Origin: Pseudomonadota bacterium
GTDB taxonomy: Bacteria > Pseudomonadota > Gammaproteobacteria > CALCKW01
Direction of reading: 5' to 3'
Assembly: GCA_039196715.1 (NCBI GenBank)
Contig: JBCCUP010000019.1
Location: 1 to 64,000, forward strand
Length of the DNA: 64,000 nt
Positions 1 to 39,763 of this stretch are shown piece after piece (the stretch's first letter is position 1; the number at the start of each line of letters is the position of its first letter). The translations under genes were made by a program, and so were the position numbers. Below the pieces are notes generated by a model. It was not told the DNA's origin. It saw nothing but the letters and a program-made list of their open reading frames with translations, and searched no databases.

Positions 1-44
1 TCTTGAGGGCGTGCATGGTGGGGTGTCGGCGGTGAGATTGCCGC

Positions 45-278
45 TTAGTGTAGTGGGCTGGCGTGTGGCTCGAGTGGGCGACGTGTGCCGCAGAACGGGT
101 TGACGGTGTGCGACGATGACTCGGCAGCCAACCCCACAACGCAAAAACCCCGGTCGTTTGGGTCGAACCGGGGTTTCTGCTGGCGGCGGTAACTGCCTTT
201 GCCTTTTTTGGCCTGTTGCTGTTTGGGCCGAAAGCGGGGTGACATCACCATCGCCTTGGCGCGTCGTCGCGTGTTCAC
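45..278 (-). CDS. arfA: ArfA-like alternative ribosome-rescue factor
   Basis: Predicted 77-residue basic protein. ArfA rescues ribosomes stalled on non-stop mRNA when tmRNA is insufficient, by recruiting RF2. The diagnostic block is a lysine-rich stretch followed by KKGKGSYRR at residues about 24-32, matching the KGKGSY core of the family. The start is a GTG at 278 with a strong AGGAGG at 288-293, nine bases away. A perfect hairpin followed by T residues lies inside the coding region, encoding roughly residues 35-48. In E. coli arfA a comparable internal structure makes the mRNA non-stop, so full-length protein is tagged by tmRNA and only truncated, active protein accumulates when trans-translation fails. 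The residues beyond the hairpin look unconserved. Family assignment rests on the short motif plus the hairpin logic. Confidence 0.8.
   Translation of the reverse strand: MNTRRRAKAMVMSPRFRPKQQQAKKGKGSYRRQQKPRFDPNDRGFCVVGLAAESSSHTVNPFCGTRRPLEPHASPLH
143..176 (-). terminator. Intrinsic terminator inside arfA
   Basis: On the minus strand AAACCCCGGT (176-167) pairs perfectly with ACCGGGGTTT (154-145) across a 12-base loop and is followed by two further T residues, giving a five-T run. It lies well before the arfA stop codon at 45-47, so transcripts ending here would lack a stop codon. The plus-strand reading has a poorer T tract. Confidence 0.8.
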
Positions 279-369
279 GGTCGGGTTCCTCCTGAAAAGC
301 GGTTCACTGTGCTGAGGGTATCGGCGGCTGGCTGCTGCTGCTGAGGCACACTCGGGTTACCATTGTCGC

Positions 370-39734: not shown

Positions 39735-39763
39735 AAAAACCCGGCCATTGGCCGGGTTTTTTT
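39735..39763. terminator. Bidirectional terminator between ppsA and acs
   Basis: CCCGGCC (39740-39746) and GGCCGGG (39750-39756) pair across a three-base loop, flanked by five A residues on the left and seven T residues on the right. It can end transcripts of both convergent genes. Confidence 0.93.

Follow-up and report, generated by a model that had tools for sequence, protein, structure and literature searches.

The window, a stretch of 64,000 nucleotides that forms the start of contig C19, carries near its first positions a short minus-strand ORF (278-45) that is arfA, the gene of a ribosome-rescue backup. Its parts, including a ribosome-binding site, the conserved core motif, an in-frame hairpin and a run of T residues, are listed in Table 1, along with the beginning of the gene that follows it.

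Table 1. Features of the arfA locus at the start of the window (positions are those of the 64,000-nucleotide stretch).
Feature	Position	Strand	Details
arfA ORF	45..278	minus	GTG start at 278, TAA stop at 47-45, 77 codons
Shine-Dalgarno AGGAGG	288..293	minus	9 nt 5' of the arfA GTG start; direct sequence reading
KGKGSY motif, residues 25-30, conserved ArfA core	189..206	minus	invariant in the window, two congeners and E. coli
In-frame hairpin	145..176	minus	5' arm 176-167 AAACCCCGGT, loop 166-155, 3' arm 154-145 ACCGGGGTTT
Run of five T	143..147	minus	direct reading; transcript predicted to end within the run or shortly after it
3' tail of the arfA ORF past the T run	45..142	minus	about 32 codons; transcription predicted to be rare
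Start of Ion_trans channel gene	1..16	minus	ATG at 16-14, continues on contig C143; Pfam Ion_trans E 1.7e-35

The preliminary description had recognized arfA in this short gene from its KGKGSY motif, and had named a profile search beforehand as a check on which that identity might fall. The search was positive. The whole ORF matches the Pfam ArfA profile PF03889 with 37.2 bits (E 1.9e-9, cut-off 25.5), the part upstream of the T run alone scores 38.9 bits against the same cut-off, and in a whole-genome profile search the ORF is the sole PF03889 match in the genome (G000). Alignment to ArfA chains solved on the ribosome bears the identity out: residues 7-35 are collinear with them, albeit weakly (phmmer, E 0.005). 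Alignments to these chains and to the E. coli protein place an A-x(4)-P-x-F-R segment ahead of KGKGSY, and an alanine of the product aligns with E. coli Ala18. It could be argued that a KGKGSY-like stretch has arisen in a chance ORF and that the gene is not arfA. NCBIfam gives no ArfA match for the window gene or for either of the genes of two congeners described below, and E. coli ArfA has nine more residues at its N-terminus, both of which would suit such a view. It is nevertheless scarcely credible, and is refuted by the Pfam profile match, which lies well over the cut-off for the window gene and for both congener genes; conserved synteny and the ribosome-binding site also speak for a real gene. 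For the window ArfA, rescue of non-stop ribosomes via RF2 and repression of its expression by trans-translation are predicted.

The hairpin lies in frame about 32 codons upstream of the stop and has a stem of 10 perfect base pairs. The 10-bp perfect stem and five T residues that had been reported inside the coding region are both present, with three bases counted in both, as A174-176 are paired with T147-145; an alternative reading is that of a 7-bp G+C-rich stem and then five T. The stem can also be extended outward to 180/141 via a G-U, an A-U and two G-C pairs, giving 14 pairs. The predicted fold has an energy of -27.9 kcal/mol; shuffled sequences average -16.0, which gives a z of -4.72. 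On the sense strand the G+C-rich stem leads directly into the T run, the sequence pattern of an intrinsic terminator. The hairpin falls short of an RNase III site of the E. coli arfA type, with its stem of about 20 pairs and some mismatches. A scan of both strands of the 64 kb for perfect stems, 7 bp or longer, that lead into T-rich sequence returned three sites only, namely the arfA hairpin, 39737-39759 and 49937-49919, the last being a weak stem and T-rich tail inside an ORF. A terminator scan with a loop limit of 8 gave nothing at the arfA hairpin because of that limit. The hairpin and T run of arfA are more than chance. The possibility that the hairpin serves as terminator of the plus-strand ABC transporter gene (370-2244) was rejected, as that gene is divergent, with transcription leading away from the hairpin. 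The site at 39737-39759 is a strong bidirectional terminator between convergent phosphoenolpyruvate-synthase-like and acetyl-CoA-synthetase-like genes (names taken from the translations).

Two congeners, G001 and G003, both have ArfA by Pfam, with products to which that of the window is 60-67% identical, and both show the same arrangement of a hairpin and T run before the stop. Their hairpins have z values of -5.5 and -4.7 in folding against shuffles, their T runs, at the same place, are 5 and 8 residues long, and the stop codon lies beyond the T run in the window gene and in both of theirs; the tail after the T run is conserved neither in sequence nor in length. In an alignment of the three sequences, every one of the 12 pairs forms in each species (36 cells, none broken) and three stem pairs are changed on both sides, whereas structures slid by 1-3 columns are 19-56% paired. 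The observed covariation was reached by 24 of 500 column shuffles; coming from three sequences, it is good, not overwhelming.

The known range of ArfA covers Gammaproteobacteria, some Betaproteobacteria and a few Bacillus (PMC11633108). A search of 143 genomes, that of the window among them, found ArfA in three (the window's own, G001 and G003), and neither in the congener G002 nor in the 139 sampled relatives outside the genus; in a wider sample of the class, it was found in 4 of 365 genomes outside the genus. The congener G002 (L124, 93% complete) has no arfA beside its ABC-transporter homologue and no orthologue of the Ion_trans gene (best 36%). Neither ArfA nor ArfB was seen in it, only tmRNA-SmpB, and it may rely on trans-translation alone.

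The genome of the window contains a tmRNA with the tag ANDDNYALAA, SmpB, RF1, RF2 (with GGQ and SPF motifs; prfB profile 495 bits) and ArfB (equivalog NF006718, 173 bits against a cut-off of 100). ArfA is one of two backups beside tmRNA, ArfB being the other. With tmRNA, SmpB, RF2 and ArfB all in the genome, the earlier reading of the locus as a tmRNA-linked rescue backup therefore fits. The prfB gene retains the CTTTGAC +1 frameshift site of RF2 autoregulation (L022:2434-2440, minus strand).

A survey of arfA 3' ends took in 80 loci from genome contigs, further genomes, E. coli and the window. It is skewed to Pseudomonas relatives because it was seeded with the window ArfA protein. The unit scored was the stretch from KGKGSY to the stop, of which there were 79, mostly from other Gammaproteobacteria and counted as distinct 3' segments, not as independent events. 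An in-frame stem equalled in no more than 2 of 40 shuffles was found in 63 of the 79, and a stem score of at least 22 in 62 of the 79. At least six T in the 10 positions past the stem were present in 29 of these 62 high-scoring hairpins, and 19 had at least four consecutive T (the window, with its T run inside the extended stem, makes 20). An in-frame hairpin ahead of the stop is thus the rule for arfA, and the arrangement in the window, given 62-63 of 79 distinct ends of this kind, follows it. The exceptions are mainly Pseudoalteromonas and Vibrio; several arfA genes of these genera have no clear in-frame hairpin, and their control may differ. In the Pseudoalteromonas loci L078, L081, L088 and L104, the hairpin of arfA spans the stop codon rather than preceding it.

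E. coli ArfA (YhdL) resembles the window gene in its core motif, the order of its parts and an in-frame stem-loop before the stop, and its genome likewise has tmRNA and RF2. Beyond the shorter N-terminus already mentioned, the window gene differs in its shorter stem, its clearer T run and its neighbour, which is a same-strand Ion_trans channel gene rather than the convergent mscL of E. coli. Pseudomonas-type arfA genes (L030, L027 and L028) share with the window the short N-terminus and an in-frame hairpin of 10-14 pairs, then T-rich sequence, before the stop. However, their stem GAAGCCTCCC is unrelated in sequence to that of the window, and their tail past the T run is a few codons long, compared with about 32. 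Termination within the arfA frame is, as an idea, already known and not new here. Terminators in other arfA genes are said to have been described already by Schaub in 2012.

It is highly probable that arfA of this uncultured Granulosicoccaceae bacterium is expressed from a non-stop mRNA made by termination at the in-frame hairpin. RNA polymerase would usually halt at the hairpin and T run, such that the message would end near codon 45-46 without a stop codon. Ribosomes would reach the end of this message and stall, and tmRNA-SmpB would tag the product of about 45 residues for degradation. Were tmRNA overloaded, the truncated ArfA would accumulate and act via RF2. The protein family, the in-frame hairpin with its T run, the compensatory changes and the presence of the partner genes can be read from the sequence; that polymerase stops there, that the product is tagged and that repression is lifted when tmRNA is overloaded is inferred from arfA of E. 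coli and brfA of B. subtilis. B. subtilis BrfA resembles the proposed scheme in its intrinsic terminator within the ORF, a proven one, and in its non-stop mRNA, tmRNA control and RF2 partner (PMC6881298); it was assumed by its discoverers to be evolutionarily unrelated to ArfA (PMC6881298), and was termed homologous to ArfA in a later survey (PMC11633108). Termination may be partial in the window gene, as the run has only five T, which are able to pair into the stem.

At the arfA stem-loop of E. coli, premature termination or cleavage by RNase III is established (PMC8012679, PMC3989581). An arfA mRNA that RNase III cuts at the hairpin after full-length transcription would also be a non-stop message, and such cutting is established for E. 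coli arfA (PMC3989581); the poor T tails of many surveyed hairpins, fewer than half of which have the T content given above, are in keeping with it. Although RNase III cleavage of the shorter stem in the window is possible, we regard it as an unlikely source of the message. The stem has 10 perfect pairs and reaches 14-15 if G-U is allowed, compared with 22 for the E. coli hairpin by the same scan, and both congeners retain T runs for which RNase III has no need. In P. aeruginosa, the arfA hairpin is said to be shorter than known RNase III substrates (PMC13159725). Intrinsic termination is favoured over RNase III because the stem is short and, judged from the short stem together with the T run, it is a plausible reading of the hairpin. 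A further view, which we hold to be very improbable, is that this is an ordinary gene-end terminator that has come to lie ahead of the stop through frame drift and has no regulatory role. An open frame through the hairpin has a fair chance of occurring in G+C-rich DNA (through about 13 codons in three genomes it is, taken alone, not improbable) and the arfA tails are without conservation, but the hairpin lies ahead of the stop in the large majority of surveyed arfA genes.

If expression works as proposed, an uncultured genus joins the bacteria in which ArfA, made from a non-stop message, is a backup controlled by tmRNA. This genus provides clean examples, in which a short stem and a T run point to termination over RNase III. 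The general picture of arfA is unchanged; the locus is a well-formed example of a known arrangement in a little-studied, uncultured lineage.

The Ion_trans gene, which is separate from arfA and encodes a channel of the voltage-gated type, begins 28 nt past the arfA stop on the same strand; in both congeners it likewise comes after arfA, with spacings of 42 and 59 nt. No promoter is proposed for it, as the TACACT motif that precedes it in two genomes has no good -35 box. Crosstalk between arfA and mscL has been described in E. coli (PMC10070815). A parallel coupling, in which the in-frame terminator of arfA would also gate the Ion_trans gene 28-59 nt downstream and read-through or the lack of it would link translation stress to an ion channel, appears quite doubtful here; both the channel and the geometry differ from those of E. 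coli. Contig C143 ends in an exact copy of bases 1-141 of the window. C19 and C143 share just these 141 bases and come apart at the foot of the arfA hairpin, which points to either a break in the assembly graph or variation between strains at that hairpin.
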